DNA from: Rhodobacteraceae bacterium LNNU 3342
Lineage (GTDB): Bacteria > Pseudomonadota > Alphaproteobacteria > Rhodobacterales > Rhodobacteraceae
DNA: 64,000 nucleotides
Reading direction: 5' to 3'
NCBI GenBank assembly: GCA_008711135.1
Contig: VUAW01000003.1
Span: 124,001 to 188,000 of the forward strand
The translations under genes were made by a program, and so were the position numbers. This document shows positions 33,806 through 53,066 of the stretch, in pieces. The notes under the pieces are model-generated. The model was not told where the DNA came from and ran no database searches. It saw only the letters and a program-made list of their open reading frames with translations. Every line of letters starts with the position of its first letter. Positions within the stretch are counted from its first letter, which is position 1.

Positions 33806-34656
33806 GGCTGATCCTTCAGAAAGGCATCGGTTTCGGCGGCAGTCGGCATGGCATCGGCGGTGCCCATGCGCGTGACCTGCAGGGCAGCCGCGGCTGCGGC
33901 CCGGCGCATCGCCTGTTCGGGCGCAAGACCGGCATCAAGGGCAGCGGCCATGTTTCCCGTGAAACAATCTCCCGCGCCGGTGGTATCGACGGGCGTGACT
34001 TTGAAGGCGGGAACGCGCACCCGGCCCCGCCAGTCCGCGCCCTCACTCCCAAGCGTGACGACGATCTCCGGCCCCTTTACCGTGCCCACCGCGGAGCGAA
34101 GCTGTGCCTCCTCTACGGCGTTCATGCAGAGGATGTCGGTATAGGGCAGCACGGCCTGCACCGCCGCCACGTCAAACGGTGCGGCGGAATAGATGACGCG
34201 CAGACCCTTTTCCCGGGCCAAGCGCGCGGCCTCTGCCTGGCACGACGTCTCGTTCTGCAGCAGCAGGATGTCGCCCGCTGCCGCCCCGGCCAGCGCCTGC
34301 GTCACCATTTTGGCATCAATCGCGATGTTCGCCCCGGGATGGATGACGATGTTGTTTTCGCCCGAAGGGTCGATGTTGATGATGGCGTGGCCCGTCGCCC
34401 CCTGAACACGGGCGATATGGGAAGTGTCGATCCCCTCGGCCTGCAGCCGGTCGAGCACCGCGCTGTCCCCTTCACCCACGGCGCCAATGTGGTGCACCTT
34501 TGCCCCGGTCCGCGCGGCGGCCACCGACTGGTTCGCACCCTTGCCGCCCAAGCCCATGACGTAGGACAGCGCGGCCAGAGTCTCTCCCGGCCCCGGCAGA
34601 TGCGGCAGGTGGTAGAAATGGTCGATGTTGATCGAGCCGAGGTTCCAGATCGCCAT
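33802..34656 (-). CDS. PfkB-family sugar/nucleoside kinase (ribokinase-like)
   Basis: 284 residues with both PfkB signatures: GLGGKGANQSVAAARTGAKV near residue 36 and VDTTGAGDCFTGNMAAAL with the catalytic Asp near residue 220. It looks most like ribokinase, so ribose to ribose 5-phosphate is the first guess, but no ribose transporter or regulator is nearby. Instead it heads a coupled unit with the aminotransferase and sulfotransferase-like genes. It follows maeB after only 3 nt in the same direction. Confidence 0.82.
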   Translation of the reverse strand: MAIWNLGSINIDHFYHLPHLPGPGETLAALSYVMGLGGKGANQSVAAARTGAKVHHIGAVGEGDSAVLDRLQAEGIDTSHIARVQGATGHAIINIDPSGENNIVIHPGANIAIDAKMVTQALAGAAAGDILLLQNETSCQAEAARLAREKGLRVIYSAAPFDVAAVQAVLPYTDILCMNAVEEAQLRSAVGTVKGPEIVVTLGSEGADWRGRVRVPAFKVTPVDTTGAGDCFTGNMAAALDAGLAPEQAMRRAAAAAALQVTRMGTADAMPTAAETDAFLKDQP

Positions 34657-44320: not shown

Positions 44321-44673
44321 TCCGGGTCTTCTGGGCCACTGCGGGAGTGTTGGCGGTCATATTCGGGATGATCGGCGCCGTCATGCCTCTGCTTCCGACG
44401 GTGCCGTTTCTGCTTCTTGCGGCCTTCTGCTTTGCCCGATCCTCTGAGAGGCTTCACGCTTGGTTGTTGCAGCATCCGCGACTCGGCCCTCCGATCCGCG
44501 AATGGCAACAGCGTGGCGCTATTTCACGTCGCGCAAAATGGCTGGCGATTGGATCGATCCTCGCCACCTTCGGAATTTCCGTGATCATCGGGCTACGACC
44601 GCTAATCCTGCTGATTCAGGGTCTGACACTTACCGGCGTCGCCCTATTCATCTGGACGCGGCCGGAGCGCTAG
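44317..44673 (+). CDS. YbaN-family (DUF454) small membrane protein
   Basis: 118 residues. Two hydrophobic hairpins are predicted, at about 5-40 and 75-112. The diagnostic signature is GMIGAVMPLLPTVPFLLLAAFCFARSSERLHAWLLQHP followed by GPPIREWQQRGAISRRAKWLA. The function of DUF454/YbaN is unknown. It is last in the rph-hemW transcript, overlapping hemW by four bases. Its stop TAG overlaps the parB stop on the opposite strand within CTAG. Confidence 0.88.
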   Translation: MIRVFWATAGVLAVIFGMIGAVMPLLPTVPFLLLAAFCFARSSERLHAWLLQHPRLGPPIREWQQRGAISRRAKWLAIGSILATFGISVIIGLRPLILLIQGLTLTGVALFIWTRPER

Positions 44674-45590
44674 GCGTCCAGTCGAAGCTTTGGGCGAGCT
44701 ACAGTCAGCATCTGGCACAGCGCGTCGAGATCTTCCAGCGTCGCGTAGCTGATCGTGATGCGCCCAGCCTGCTCCCCTACCCTGTGGTCAATCTCGACCC
44801 GCATGCCAAGGTTGGCCGATAGATCCCCTTCCAAGGCACGGGTATCCGCATCCTTCTCAGCGGCAACTGCTCCCGCTTTGCGCTTTGCACCTTCGGCAGC
44901 CTTGGGCTTTTTCACCAAGGCTTCGGTTTCCCGAACAGAAAGATCGCGCGCGATCACCTGCCGGGCAAGTTCCGATGCGTTCGCCGTGGTGATAAGTGCC
45001 CTGGCATGACCGGCGGTCAGCTTCCCTTCCCGGAGGTAGTCCTGCACCTCTTCAGGAAGCTGCAAGAGGCGCATCAGGTTCGCGATATGGCTGCGGCTTT
45101 TGCTCAACGCCTCTGCCAGCTTTTCCTGGGTATGGCCAAAGCGATCCATGAGCTGACGATAACCCATCGCCTCCTCGACCGGGTTCAGGTCGGCGCGCTG
45201 GATGTTTTCGATGATGGCGATTTCCAGAACTTCGGTGTCAGAGAATTCCCGGACAACAACCGGAACCTCATGCAACTTGGCCATCTGGGCGGCTCGCCAG
45301 CGGCGTTCGCCCGCGACGATTTCGTAAGTGCCGGCGCCCTGGTCCTTTGGCCGCACGATCAGGGGCTGGATGATCCCCTTTTCCCGAATAGAAGCTGCCA
45401 GTTCTTCAAGCGCCTCTCGCGTGAAGTGTCGCCGCGGCTGGTCGGGGTTGGGGATGACCTTTTCGACCGGCAGGACCAGATCCGCCCTCCGCGCTCGCTC
45501 TGTTTCTGCAGCTGTCTGATCCAAACTCACATCCGCCATCAACGCTGAAAGCCCACGTCCAAGACCGCGCCGTTCCTGCCGCTTGTCCAT
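44670..45590 (-). CDS. parB: Chromosome partitioning protein ParB (parS-binding CTPase)
   Basis: 306 residues. ParB binds parS and slides along DNA as a CTP-dependent clamp, then directs origin segregation through ParA. The CTP-binding elements GERRWRAAQMA (GERR at 94-97) and ENIQRADLNPVEEA (128-141) are intact. A helix-turn-helix follows (TQEKLAEALSKSRSHIANLMRLLQLPEEVQDYL). A charged linker (KAAEGAKRKAGAVAAEKDAD) precedes the C-terminal dimerisation domain. The start is ATG 45590, overlapping the parA stop (TGATG). Two parS sites lie 1.4 and 3.3 kb upstream. Confidence 0.97.
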   Translation of the reverse strand: MDKRQERRGLGRGLSALMADVSLDQTAAETERARRADLVLPVEKVIPNPDQPRRHFTREALEELAASIREKGIIQPLIVRPKDQGAGTYEIVAGERRWRAAQMAKLHEVPVVVREFSDTEVLEIAIIENIQRADLNPVEEAMGYRQLMDRFGHTQEKLAEALSKSRSHIANLMRLLQLPEEVQDYLREGKLTAGHARALITTANASELARQVIARDLSVRETEALVKKPKAAEGAKRKAGAVAAEKDADTRALEGDLSANLGMRVEIDHRVGEQAGRITISYATLEDLDALCQMLTVARPKLRLDA

Positions 45591-46417
45591 CAATGCTGCC
45601 CCTCTACCTGTTGTGGTGTGGTGTTATGACGCTCCATCATCTCGCGTGCCAACGCGCGATAGGCTTGGCTCCCTCGCGAATTCGGGTCATAATTCAGCAC
45701 CGGCATAGCGTAAGAAGGCGCCTCGCTGACCCGGACATTCCGGGGAACCACCGTGTTGAAAACCAAAGCCCCAAGGTTGTCCCGGGCATCCTGTTCAACC
45801 TGCTGGGAGAGGTTGTTGCGGCCGTCGTACATCGTAAGCACGACGCCCTCAATCCGGAGATCAGGGTTCGCGGACTGACGCACTTGGCGCACCGTCAACA
45901 AAAGCTGCGACAGCCCTTCAAGGGCAAAGAATTCACTTTGCAGGGGCACCAAGATCGACTGAGCGGCGACCATTGCATTCACAGTCAAGAGGCTCAGCGA
46001 CGGCGGGCAGTCGATCAGGATGTAGTTAAACTCGAAACGGGCGATGCCCGACTGCGTCAACGACCGCTGCAACAAAAAGCTCCGCCGGTCTGCGCTACCG
46101 AAGTCCATATCAGCAGAAGAAAGATCCGTCGTGGCCGGGCAGAGCCAGATGTTGTTAAAGCCTGTTGCCGCGATGACCTCCTCAATTGGCGCATCATCAA
46201 GCAGCAAGTCATAGGTGGTATAGCGTCGTTCGCTCGGCTCCACGCCCAGTCCCGTTGATGCATTGCCCTGAGGGTCGAGGTCCACAACCAGGATGCGGAA
46301 CCCCTCCTCTGCCAGTGCGGCGGCAAGGTTGATGGCAGTGGTCGTTTTTCCGACGCCGCCCTTCTGGTTGGCAACAGCAATGATGCGCGGGCCGGAGCCT
46401 TGCCGATGTTCAGACAC
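45590..46417 (-). CDS. parA: Chromosome partitioning ATPase ParA
   Basis: 275-residue deviant Walker ATPase that pulls the ParB-parS complex across the nucleoid. Deviant Walker A KGGVGKTT lies at 19-26, preceded by RIIAVANQ. ILVVDLDPQGNASTGLGV and ILIDCPPSLSLLTVNAMVAA are the other nucleotide motifs. The start is GTG 46417: GGAGG lies 9 nt upstream and the ORF overlaps the rsmG stop by eight bases. The frame continues upstream to 46513 inside rsmG and is rejected because it lacks a ribosome binding site. ParB bound to the parS in rsmG might control this operon. Confidence 0.96.
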   Translation of the reverse strand: MSEHRQGSGPRIIAVANQKGGVGKTTTAINLAAALAEEGFRILVVDLDPQGNASTGLGVEPSERRYTTYDLLLDDAPIEEVIAATGFNNIWLCPATTDLSSADMDFGSADRRSFLLQRSLTQSGIARFEFNYILIDCPPSLSLLTVNAMVAAQSILVPLQSEFFALEGLSQLLLTVRQVRQSANPDLRIEGVVLTMYDGRNNLSQQVEQDARDNLGALVFNTVVPRNVRVSEAPSYAMPVLNYDPNSRGSQAYRALAREMMERHNTTPQQVEGQH

Positions 46418-47027
46418 GGGTGATGCCTCCAATATCCAGGATGGCCCCGGCGGGGTCGGTGACACTTCTATGCGCTTTGCATTCAAACTGCCAGAGCCGG
46501 CGAGCATCGGCAATCTCTTCCACGTGGGCAGCGCCTTTCAGGAAAAGCGCTTTCCCCTGTGGTTGCAGATGAAGCTGCGCATAATCGAGAAGTTGCGCCA
46601 AGGGGGCGAGCGCTCGTGCTGATGCAACATCGGCGCCAAGCGGAGGAAGTGCCTCTACCCGTTGTGCATGAACCGTCGCGTTTAGGCCCAGTTCGCGCAC
46701 AGTTGCTGAAAGAAATGCTGCTTTGCGACCATCGGATTCGACAAGATGTGTATGCAGTTCAGGCGCCTTCTCCAGCGCCAAAATTGCAACGACTAGCCCA
46801 GGGAAGCCGCCACCGCTACCAAAGTCTACCCAGGATCTAGCAGGCGGCGCATATTGGAAGATTTGCGCCGAGTCCAGAAAATGTCGTTCCCAAAGATCCG
46901 CAAGTGTAGACTTTGAAACAAGATTTATAGCAGCGTTCCACTTGCGGAGCAGCGCTTCATACTGTTCAAGTCGAGATGATGTTTCACGTGAAACATCCAC
47001 ATGAACTTCTAAGCCCTTGCGATGCAT
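46410..47027 (-). CDS. rsmG: 16S rRNA (guanine527-N7)-methyltransferase RsmG
   Basis: 205-residue SAM-dependent enzyme acting on 16S rRNA; loss gives low-level streptomycin resistance in other species. Signatures are RKWNAAINLVSKST, RHFLDSAQIF, VDFGSGGGFPGLVVAI (SAM motif) and LVESDGRKAAFL. Near the N-terminus the peptide DVSRETS is encoded by a perfect parS palindrome at 46980-46995. The start ATG at 47027 overlaps the mnmG stop by one base; a GTG nine codons in is an alternative. The base composition is clearly lower in GC than in the left part of the window. Confidence 0.94.
   Translation of the reverse strand: MHRKGLEVHVDVSRETSSRLEQYEALLRKWNAAINLVSKSTLADLWERHFLDSAQIFQYAPPARSWVDFGSGGGFPGLVVAILALEKAPELHTHLVESDGRKAAFLSATVRELGLNATVHAQRVEALPPLGADVASARALAPLAQLLDYAQLHLQPQGKALFLKGAAHVEEIADARRLWQFECKAHRSVTDPAGAILDIGGITRV
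46980..46995. other. parS centromere site 1 (inside rsmG)
   Basis: TGTTTCACGTGAAACA, a perfect 16-bp palindrome identical to the consensus ParB-binding parS site. It lies in the coding sequence of rsmG, 563 bp upstream of the parA start codon. It encodes the VSRET part of the protein. Confidence 0.95.
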
Positions 47028-48898
47028 TACGAAACACGCTTCCGCTCTGCCTGCTTCAGCTTGGCGAGGATCAGCGTCACTGCAGCCGGGGTCATCCCAT
47101 CAATTCGGCTGGCTTGGCCCAATGTCTGCGGACGTACACGTGAAAGCTTTCCTTTCAGTTCATTCGAGAGCCCCGCGATGGAGTCGTAATCCATATCAGG
47201 CGGAAGTACATGCCCCTCATCCCGACGCAGCGCCGCGACGTCCTCTTGCTGCCGCTCGATATAGGTGGCGTAGAGCGCGTCGCGGCAAATCTGCTCGCGG
47301 ATATCTCCTGCGATTGAGGCGGCCTCCGGTACCAAACCCAAGATAGTGTCGAAATCCACCTCAGGGAACGCGAGTACTTCATAGGCTGTCCTGCGCACAC
47401 CATCTTGGCTCACTTTGATCCCGGCCGCGTTCAGTTGCTGCGGGCTGAAGGCCTCTCGCGTCAGTTGCCCGCGTCCGGCAGCCAAAGCATCCATCTTGGC
47501 AGCGAAAGCTTCTGCACGGGGAGCACCCACACAACCAATGGCCACGCCCCACGGAGTAAGCCGCTGGTCCGCATTATCAGCACGCAGCGACAGCCTGAAC
47601 TCGGCGCGGGAGGTAAACATGCGGTAAGGCTCCGTCACTCCGCGTGTCACCAGATCATCAATCATCACGCCGATGTAGCTGCTCGCGCGCTCAAAACGGA
47701 TTGGCTCCTCCCCTTTCGCAGCAAGCGCGGCATTGAGGCCAGCCGCAAGGCCTTGGGCCGCAGCCTCTTCATAACCCGTCGTTCCGTTGATCTGCCCCGC
47801 GAGATAGAGGCCGGGCACATCCTTGAGTTCGAGCGTAAAGCGGAGAGCACGCGGGTCAACGTAGTCATACTCGATTGCGTAACCTAGCTGTAGAATGCGC
47901 ACATCTTCAAGCCCACGCATCGATCGAACGTAGGTCTCCTGCACATCCTCCGGCAGAGAGGTAGAGATTCCGTTAGGATAAACCGTCGGATCATCAAGCC
48001 CCTCTGGCTCCAGGAAGACCTGATGAGCCGTCTTGTCCGCGAAGCGCACGACCTTGTCCTCGATAGAGGGGCAGTATCTTGGGCCCACCCCTTCGATATG
48101 GCCGCCATACATTGCTGACCGGTCGAGGTTCGCTCGGATGATCTCGTGCGTCCGCTCGTTGGTATGGGTAATTCCGCAAGCGATCTGCCGCGCCTCTGGA
48201 ATGCGGTTCAGAAAAGAGAACAACACCGGGTCATCGTCGCCCGGTTGGCTTTCAAGGATGTCCCAATTGATAGTGCGCCCGTCCAAGCGGGGTGGTGTCC
48301 CGGTTTTGAGGCGCCCGAGCGGCAAGCCAAAGCCATCAAGCCGCTCTGCCAGACGAACCGAGGGTCGATCACCCATACGACCGCCCTGTCGACGCTGATC
48401 TCCAATGTGGATGACCCCACGAAGGAAGGTGCCCGTTGTCAGCACCACGGCCGAAGAACCGATGACTTCGCCGCCAGCAAGAATGACACCTGCTACCCGC
48501 GCACCATCCATGACCAGATCAGCAGCCTCGCCCTCGATGACGTCGAGGTTGGGGGTGGAGAGAATCTCTGCCAGCATCGCTTCGCGGTACAGCCGCCGAT
48601 CAGCCTGCGCCCGCGGCCCCTGCACTGCAGGACCCTTGCGTCGGTTCAAAAGGCGAAACTGGATTCCTGCCCTATCAGCGACGCGACCCATGAGGCCATC
48701 CATTGCATCAACTTCCCGCACAAGATGGCCTTTACCTAATCCTCCGATCGCCGGATTGCAGGACATCACGCCGATCGTGTCCTTCCGCAAGGTAAGAAGT
48801 GCTGTCCGCGCGCCGACACGAGCCGCTGCGTGAGCCGCCTCTGCCCCGGCATGTCCGCCACCGACGACAATGACATCATAATGTTTCACGTGAAACAC
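47027..48898 (-). CDS. mnmG: tRNA uridine-5-carboxymethylaminomethyl modification enzyme MnmG (GidA)
   Basis: 623-residue FAD protein that, with MnmE, installs cmnm5 on U34 of certain tRNAs. The dinucleotide-binding loop is [57 protein letters not shown] and [17 protein letters not shown] are hallmarks. The start is GTG 48898, giving [11 protein letters not shown]; the first five codons coincide with a perfect parS site. A GTG at 48889 is a shorter alternative. It is 3 nt downstream of mnmE, its functional partner, and overlaps rsmG by one base. Confidence 0.96.
48882..48897. other. parS centromere site 2 (across the mnmG start)
   Basis: A second perfect TGTTTCACGTGAAACA. It covers codons 1-6 of mnmG apart from the first base of the GTG start codon and thereby encodes the peptide FHVKH. 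It is about 3.2 kb from the edge of the predicted origin. Confidence 0.95.
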
Positions 48899-51593: not shown

Positions 51594-52043
51594 TCAGAAC
51601 TTCAAAACCACCGAAAAGACGATCACGACCAGCAGCAGCGTGGGAAGCTCGTTCATCATGCGGTACTGACGGCCGTTTACCCGGTTGTCCCCCCGCTGAA
51701 ACCCTTTGCGGCGCAGGCCCAGCCAATGATGGAACCAGGTCATGGCAAGCGCCGCAGCCGCCTTCGTCCAGGGCCAGATTGTTCCCCAGTCAACGATGCC
51801 AGGTGTCATCACCAGCATGAGCCCGAACACCCAACTCGCAATCATCGCGGGGTTCATTATGAATTTCAGTAGCTTGAGCTCCATGGTCTGGAACAGTGCA
51901 TCCGTCTGGCCACCCGCTTTCACCTGTTCCACGTGATAGACGAACAGCCTGGGAAGATAGAACAGGCCTGCCATCCACGCCACAATCGACAGGATGTGGA
52001 ACGATTTGGTCCAAGGATAAAGCGTCGAGAGCAGGTCCCACAT
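51594..52043 (-). CDS. hemJ: Protoporphyrinogen IX oxidase HemJ
   Basis: 149-residue inner-membrane protein of the UPF0093/HemJ family that oxidises protoporphyrinogen IX, just before ferrochelatase. Four hydrophobic segments are expected. The sequence contains the conserved SFHILSIVAWMAGLFYLPRLFVYHVE with its histidine, and KAAAALAMTWFHHWLGLRR and RMMNELPTLLLVVIV. The rho gene follows after 115 nt in the same direction. Its upstream region is the putative replication origin, so transcription of hemJ starts near or within oriC. Confidence 0.93.
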   Translation of the reverse strand: MWDLLSTLYPWTKSFHILSIVAWMAGLFYLPRLFVYHVEQVKAGGQTDALFQTMELKLLKFIMNPAMIASWVFGLMLVMTPGIVDWGTIWPWTKAAAALAMTWFHHWLGLRRKGFQRGDNRVNGRQYRMMNELPTLLLVVIVFSVVLKF

Positions 52044-52073
52044 GTCCAGCCAACCTCACTTTGGGTCGGGCAT

Positions 52074-52118
52074 CTTTAGAATATTTAAGAAAAGAATGAA
52101 AAGTAGATGTTGTAGTAA
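52074..52118. other. AT-rich block, candidate DNA-unwinding element
   Basis: A/T-dominated stretch (CTTTAGAATATTTAAG and following purine-rich bases) directly left of the first DnaA box. Its composition is far below the surrounding GC level. Assignment rests on composition and position only. Confidence 0.55.
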
Positions 52119-52178
52119 GGCCAGTGGATAACTCGAATTCACGGGTGTCCGGTGTCTCTATCCACAACTCGTCGATCC

Positions 52179-52187
52179 TGTGGATAA
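52179..52187 (-). promoter_or_regulatory. Perfect DnaA box
   Basis: TTATCCACA on the minus strand (TGTGGATAA on plus), identical to the high-affinity consensus. Confidence 0.85.
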
Positions 52188-52274
52188 CTCTGTGCAGCGA
52201 ATCTGGAACTTTTTCCACTTCCCGATTCCGTTTTTTTCTTCCGATACTTAGGTGAGCCCAGAAGCGCGCCGTTC

Positions 52275-52283
52275 TGTGGATAA
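52275..52283 (-). promoter_or_regulatory. Perfect DnaA box
   Basis: Second exact TTATCCACA on the minus strand, 96 bp to the right of the first. Confidence 0.85.
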
Positions 52284-52466
52284 TCGAGGACAGATGCCGT
52301 CTGTTACATCTCATCCACAGGCCGCGCGAAAAATTTTCCCACCGTGGATAAACCGGGCTGGTTCCTTGACAGTCATCGCTGTGATCGGGGATTTCTTGGC
52401 AGCGCGGCAGATGCCCCCACGCCATCCGCCGAGTCGTCTGCCGATTCCAGCACAGGGTTTTCCACA

Positions 52467-53066
52467 ATGCCGCGCGAAATTATTCTTGCCTCCAGCTCTG
52501 ACATCCGGGCGCGGCTGTTGCGAAATGCGGGGATAGAGATCCGTCAGGTCCCTGCGCGGGTGGATGAAGATGCAATTCGCGACGCCCTTTTGGCCGAGGG
52601 TGCCAGTCCGCGCGACGTGGCTGATACGCTTGCCGAGAGCAAAGCCCGGAAAATCGGTGAAAAACATCCAAGTTCGCTGGTAATCGGCTGCGATCAGGTG
52701 CTTGATCTCGACGGCCAGATCCTGACCAAGCCGTCTGATCCTGATGCAGCGCGGGCACAGTTGGCGTCCCTTCGTGGCCGCACCCACCGGCTTTTGTCCG
52801 CGGCCGTGATATACGAAGATGCGCAGCCGGTCTGGCGCCATGTCGGGCAGGTCCGCCTTACCATGCGCGCCTTCACCGACAGCTATCTGGAGGATTACGT
52901 GACCCGCAACTGGGACAGCATTCGCCACTCCGTTGGGGCCTACAAGCTCGAGGAGGAAGGCGCGCGCCTGTTTGCGTCAGTGCAGGGTGACTATTTCACC
53001 ACCCTTGGCCTGCCGCTCCTGGAGCTGCTGAATTTCCTGAGTATCCGCGGGGACATTGCGTCATGA
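52467..53066 (+). CDS. Maf-family nucleoside triphosphate pyrophosphatase
   Basis: 199-residue member of the Maf/HAM1 superfamily; relatives hydrolyse dTTP/UTP or modified pyrimidine and m7GTP nucleotides and have been tied to division arrest. Conserved parts are [46 protein letters not shown] and [26 protein letters not shown]. The subfamily (YhdE or YceF type) is not assigned. The ATG is abutted by a near-consensus DnaA box, so its expression could respond to initiation. First of the coupled set maf-aroE-coaE-dnaQ running away from oriC. Confidence 0.9.

Follow-up and report, generated by a model that had tools for sequence, protein, structure and literature searches.

A probable chromosomal replication origin between hemJ and maf in Rhodobacteraceae bacterium LNNU 3342, with a displaced strand-bias switch

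In Caulobacter crescentus, the chromosomal origin Cori lies between hemE and a COG1806 gene and, like the Rickettsia prowazekii ori, combines DnaA boxes with an AT-rich part in an intergenic region (PMC1914354). Within the Rhodobacteraceae, oriC has been predicted in 101 strains by the criteria of DnaA boxes, a local G+C minimum, and proximity to parAB, and the same article interprets a skew switch inside one replichore of Celeribacter marinus as an inversion or a misassembly (PMC6699656). For the unwinding element termed BUS, the published rule requires a DnaA box to have three or more 3'-NAN-5' trios no farther than 16 bp away (PMC8287927). Here, we analyzed a 64,000-nucleotide stretch (hereafter, the window) of the genome of Rhodobacteraceae bacterium LNNU 3342. 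From sequence comparison, the intergenic region between hemJ and maf (window positions 52044–52466, 423 bases) is very probably the chromosomal oriC of this bacterium, and a switch of strand polarity about 74 kb away most likely reflects a recent inversion (or misassembly) of the segment from about +8 to +72 kb, counted from the gap toward the maf side, rather than initiation at that distant point.

The gap is bordered on the left by hemJ (51594–52043, minus strand; TIGR00701, 136.5 bits, slightly below the cut-off of 138.05) and on the right by maf (52467–53066, plus strand; TIGR00172, 123.2 bits, above the cut-off of 117.15), and these divergent genes point away from it, as the sequence-only reading of this DNA had claimed. 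That reading also proposed two exact and at least five single-mismatch DnaA boxes in both orientations. We counted seven boxes with at most one mismatch within 52123–52466, exactly two of them perfect and five with one mismatch, and both orientations are represented. From left to right, these are TTATCCACT (52123–52131, minus strand, one mismatch), which lies beside the trio-like array discussed below; CTATCCACA (52158–52166, plus strand, one mismatch); two exact copies of TTATCCACA detected by motif scan (52179–52187 and 52275–52283, both on the minus strand); TCATCCACA (52311–52319, plus strand, one mismatch); TTATCCACG (52343–52351, minus strand, one mismatch); and TTTTCCACA (52458–52466, plus strand, one mismatch), which is preceded by AGGG and followed by the maf start codon, at a conserved position. 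Shuffled versions of the gap contained at most two boxes (2000 base and 2000 dinucleotide shuffles), versus the seven observed, and on the window's own contig (C33, 297,675 bases), at least three boxes with up to one mismatch per 500 bp were found only at the hemJ–maf gap. The gap, accordingly, has the DnaA-box cluster beyond chance that is characteristic of a bacterial oriC. The additional claim that this is the sole sizeable intergenic stretch of the window was not confirmed, with a crude ORF tiling yielding 11 other gaps longer than 300 bp; this tiling is unreliable, having missed the hemJ–maf gap itself, and some of the other gaps possibly contain small genes. No sigma-70 promoter or terminator was found in a scan of window positions 51950–52600, and the Rfam scan of six stretches of the contig (L010–L015) returned just one tRNA and one cobalamin riboswitch. 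The Caulobacter-type CtrA motif, TTAA-N7-TTAA, is absent from the hemJ–maf gap at up to one mismatch, and in this respect, the gap does not belong with the CtrA-controlled origins of the Caulobacter type, in which the motif lies within the origin.

The left end of the gap was reported earlier to be AT-rich, with 19 of 60 bases G/C from position 52081, and the recount of 52081–52140 gave the same value. The lowest G+C content among all 60-mers of the window is found slightly farther to the left, at 52072–52131 (17 of 60 bases G/C), where we place the putative AT-rich unwinding element; it adjoins the boxes, as in bacterial oriC. A DnaA-trio-like array (52086–52106, plus strand) follows the box at 52123–52131 after a spacer of 16 and runs away from it as seven uninterrupted 3'-NAN-5' triplets, so that both the run and the spacer fall within the BUS rule. 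The trio run does not exceed three at any of the contig's 29 remaining boxes, and a run of at least seven occurs at 14 of 20,000 random contig positions, a background that understates chance in the AT-rich gap because the contig as a whole is G+C-rich. The same scan detected no trio run of at least three at any box in 15 of 22 relatives, and only two of the 22 (L017 and L023) have such a run at the left module described below; for these reasons, we refer to the array as BUS-like. In the mechanism suggested by these features, DnaA would bind the seven hemJ–maf boxes and extend from the left-most one along the trio-like AT-rich strand (52086–52106); the duplex would then melt on the hemJ side, the helicase would be loaded, and replication would proceed bidirectionally, with ParB bound at the nearby parS sites segregating the new origins. 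The region would thus be an ordinary, conserved alphaproteobacterial origin, and its assignment to this known kind is well supported at the sequence level.

Two exact matches to the parS consensus used for the site scan lie to the left of the gap on the plus strand, at 46980–46995 (5.0 kb away) and 48882–48897 (3.1 kb away). The parB and parA genes occupy 44670–46513 on the minus strand: parB (44670–45593), identified by a TIGR00180 match over the cut-off, begins 6.5 kb from the gap, and parA (45590–46513), assigned from ParA-like matches (the best of them, NF041546, sub-cut-off) together with its position, ends 5.5 kb from the gap. The earlier placement of parAB and parS within 6 kb is thus correct for parA and both parS sites, and parB lies slightly beyond that distance. 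Two further parS-like sequences were observed in the window, one with a single mismatch (TGTTTCCCGTGAAACA, 33951–33966), 18 kb to the left of the origin, and a degenerate one with three mismatches inside hemJ (51925–51940), approximately 100 bp from the origin. With rho and hemJ to the left of the gap, maf-aroE-coaE-dnaQ to its right, and the par genes and parS near, the locus has the gene neighborhood of an alphaproteobacterial oriC. In Caulobacter, we take rho and hemJ to lie beyond hemE, and maf-aroE-coaE-dnaQ to lie beyond COG1806, and many of the alphaproteobacterial loci examined fit this arrangement. As for the immediate flanks, hemE and COG1806 do not border the gap as they border the Caulobacter and Rickettsia origins: the hemE of this genome is on a different contig (C1:86141), and PF03618 (COG1806) has no match in this genome.

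The dnaA gene is located 21 kb from the gap, on the maf side. An origin at dnaA itself was considered and rejected because the contig scan revealed no DnaA-box cluster there. Among 36 relatives from the same family, rho and dnaA share a contig in 17, with dnaA directed away from the gap in 11 and toward it in 6, according to an orientation tally made by hand; hence, the position of dnaA says little about where oriC lies in Rhodobacteraceae. We also observed that the C1 contig records of G003 and G034 start at dnaA, with the hemJ–maf gap about 81 kb and 632 kb off, respectively, if these contigs are circular, in which case numbering that starts at dnaA puts the origin in the wrong place.

Among Rhodobacteraceae loci, the gene order rho, hemJ, gap, maf, aroE, coaE, dnaQ is found repeatedly, within the reach of each locus, and in the family loci compared, nothing but the gap separates hemJ (or rho) from maf. 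Gap length was measured in 23 of these loci, that is, the window, 19 of the 20 loci L017–L036 (L018 was dropped for want of maf), and G034, G003, and G013, with L037–L096 excluded and the gap ends defined by start codons inferred from tblastn. The gap spans 386–458 bp in 17 of the 23 and 486–579 bp in the remaining six, which are L036 and five loci in which hemJ was not found and the length was measured to rho (L021, L027, L028, L031, and L035). In these five, rho directly borders the gap, with no hemJ homolog found between rho and maf. In many other alphaproteobacterial loci, hemJ and maf are separated by approximately 1.3–3.1 kb, which would be room for hemE and COG1806 genes.

The number of boxes varies among these gaps, and the seven in the window exceed the count in every one of the 22 relatives compared, several of which have just one or two boxes when scored against the E. 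coli consensus. Alignment of the gaps shorter than 440 bp (16 of the 23) delineated a conserved left module that consists of AT-rich sequence, a GATGATG-like block, GTAGGG, and a box of the form CTGTGGATTA. The strict version of this pattern, GATGATG..GTAG..TGTGGATTA, matched once each in 12 of 198 family genomes, compared with none for the reversed control, and all 12 matches adjoin maf and rho. There is no match to the strict pattern in the genome studied here, in which the box is nearer the block; many relatives retain a GATGATG-like block with the box 21–24 bp further on.

At the opposite end of the gap, the last box (52458–52466) abuts the maf ATG at 52467, in line with the earlier observation that the boxes reach the maf start codon. 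A box with up to two mismatches is present at the maf start in 24 of 34 loci, comprising 15 of the 23 (window included) and nine of 11 further loci, which were selected via the left-module pattern (10 of 12 before L159, which comes from the same genome as G013, was dropped). At control offsets upstream of maf, which cover the 23-locus set only, a box was found in 1.5% of cases. In the boxed loci, with the exception of the window, the final A of the box is the A of the ATG. Among the 15 boxed loci of the 23-locus set, to which the ribosome-site count applies, AGG, GGG, GGA, or GAG is present in the four bases before the box in 13, versus 77 of 851 control positions; in these 13 loci, the space from this Shine-Dalgarno-like stretch to the start codon is occupied by the predicted box. 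The suggestion that the origin and the gene control region are fused therefore holds, and the arrangement is conserved through the maf-start box (24/34) and the Shine-Dalgarno-like stretch (13/15).

DnaA may act on maf at this start-codon box, and the box could also merely mark the edge of the origin. A more specific and, on balance, doubtful proposal is that the Rhodobacteraceae oriC ends on the right in a DnaA box that occupies the space from the ribosome-binding site to the maf ATG, such that DnaA loading directly gates Maf expression and couples initiation to division in cis, with Maf regarded as a nucleotide pyrophosphatase linked to septum formation; the NCBIfam models name the maf product partly as a septum formation inhibitor. 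No relevant report on a DnaA box at the maf start was found in the open-access literature searched. In any case, the start-codon box offers a simple and testable connection of maf to replication initiation. Its presence in many relatives, along with the divergent genes around the gap, could be taken to indicate that the cluster titrates DnaA or serves hemJ and maf as a regulatory site and is not an origin. We assign next to no likelihood to this interpretation because seven boxes, an AT-rich trio-like element, parS within 3–5 kb, and the higher skew of the maf arm in all six relatives analyzed (see below) go beyond what regulation calls for.

The sequence-only reading had predicted that GC skew turns at the gap and had named a minimum located elsewhere as an outcome against its own proposal. 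Taken literally, the latter was observed: the cumulative GC-skew minimum of the contig is at 230.1 kb, 54 kb from the gap on the maf side. A rearrangement (or misassembly) next to the origin accounts for this displaced minimum better than an origin elsewhere would. The polarity of GGGNAGGG, which we take to be the FtsK guide sequence, is displaced as well, with the best switch 74 kb from the boxes on the maf side; 65 of the 75 sites agree with this switch, versus 47 with a switch placed at the boxes. Between 0 and +72 kb, there are 3 plus and 21 minus sites, a left-arm-like bias, and beyond +72 kb, there are 11 plus and 0 minus sites. Within the first 8 kb toward maf, where the right-arm sign would be expected to persist, there are one plus and one minus site, and the third-position gene-strand skew signal is too small to discriminate.

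These biases would be expected if the working origin were near 247–249 kb of the contig, some 72 kb to the maf side, with the hemJ–maf cluster being a relic or a secondary site. The GGGNAGGG sites number 10 plus and 54 minus to the left of that point and 11 plus and 0 minus to its right, and the boxes lie farther from the GC-skew minimum than this point does. However, the point has a single one-mismatch DnaA box, no cluster, and a trio run of 1, and among the 300-bp windows of the contig, it does not rank in the top 25 for AT content. Moreover, the hemJ–maf cluster, unlike a relic, has a box count that tops those of all the relatives compared, and the rearranged gene order between about +8 and +72 kb can account for the displaced bias. 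We consider an origin at this distant point highly improbable.

That gene order differs from the order in the relatives, which renders the displaced strand bias explicable with the origin at the hemJ–maf gap. Relative to G003, the genome studied here consists of block A (0 to +8 kb), block B in inverted orientation (+9 to +44 kb), block C (+45 to +67 kb), and block D, the order in G003 being A, C, B, D. Conversion of A C B D into A −B C D requires at least two inversions; both blocks would carry the left-arm sign if C had been inverted long ago and the C–B block recently. In G222, which is the closest of the six relatives analyzed for strand bias and the source of L017 (rho 91% identical), B has the opposite orientation to that in the genome studied here and is located at +212 to +248 kb, and C and a left-arm block have swapped arms through inversions roughly symmetric about the gap: positions −19 to −29 kb here map to +22 to +32 kb, and +46 to +67 kb map to −23 to −45 kb, with the segment from −15 to about +5 kb untouched. 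Most of B is oriented as here but located farther out in G009 and G035, the latter of which also has the end of C inverted, and in G013, B is on the opposite arm, at about −200 to −220 kb. Given that positions and orientations differ across these five relatives, such blocks move often. The block inverted relative to G003 and G222 (185.8–220 kb of the contig, L011–L013) starts with a motA-like gene and carries dnaA. Farther along the contig, at 244.7–252 kb (L014), a tRNA is followed by a periplasmic-binding/FecCD/ABC transport cluster, and this region coincides with the strand-bias switch and with the loss of synteny with G003.

Because the genome is a draft in 62 contigs, the displaced polarity could also be an assembly error in which a piece of approximately 64 kb was misoriented, rather than a real inversion; the origin would stay at hemJ–maf. 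For the similar skew switch in Celeribacter marinus, the published analysis likewise allows inversion or misassembly (PMC6699656). However, the contig contains no N runs, and the search for sequence shared between the presumed inversion ends, that is, the two candidate junction regions, yielded no long repeat (best match 19 bp, E 0.004). We regard such an error as unlikely.

The relatives provide a view of strand bias around the same gap. Among the six analyzed, for which the arm counts cover the fetched stretches and not whole chromosomes, the maf arm exceeds the hemJ arm in GC skew in every case, and the sign of the skew changes between the arms in five, with G009 positive on both. In 20-kb steps, the skew turns within 20–30 kb of the gap in G003, G013, and G035 and is already positive beside the gap on the hemJ side in G009, G034, and G222. 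The polarity of GGGNAGGG is opposite between the arms in five of the six (Fisher p <0.02), the arms being alike in G003 (p 0.81), and the best switch is at +10 kb in G013, +89 kb in G034, and −183 kb in G003. When the six relatives are pooled, the interval from 0 to +72 kb contains 46 plus and 24 minus sites, opposite to the bias in the genome studied here. These skew and GGGNAGGG patterns favor an origin in the gap or close to it, although they do not fix its exact place in each relative.

To conclude, the original proposal of an alphaproteobacterial oriC between hemJ and maf is supported by the box cluster, the AT-rich element, the gene neighborhood, parS, conservation, the maf-arm skew of the relatives, and inversions that roughly pivot on the gap. 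A probable origin is now placed in a draft Rhodobacteraceae genome whose dnaA gene lies away from oriC and in which strand bias alone would misplace the origin by tens of kilobases. The start-codon box and this skew trap are the parts worth following.

Among the known systems, the BUS of Bacillus subtilis and other bacteria resembles the window in the trios next to a DnaA box, seven of them here, but the spacer of 16 sits at the published limit (PMC8287927), and most of the 22 relatives fail the trio scan. The Caulobacter Cori and the Rickettsia prowazekii ori, in the sections considered, are flanked by hemE and COG1806 (PF03618), and this origin is flanked by neither; Cori, in addition, has five CtrA sites, whereas the hemJ–maf gap has no TTAA-N7-TTAA at up to one mismatch (PMC1914354). 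The likeness to these two origins consists in DnaA boxes and an AT-rich part within an intergenic region (PMC1914354). The 101-strain Rhodobacteraceae oriC set, which in the main-text parts compared is presented without flanking genes, a trio-like array, or a maf-start box, has both the family and the criteria in common with the origin described here (PMC6699656).
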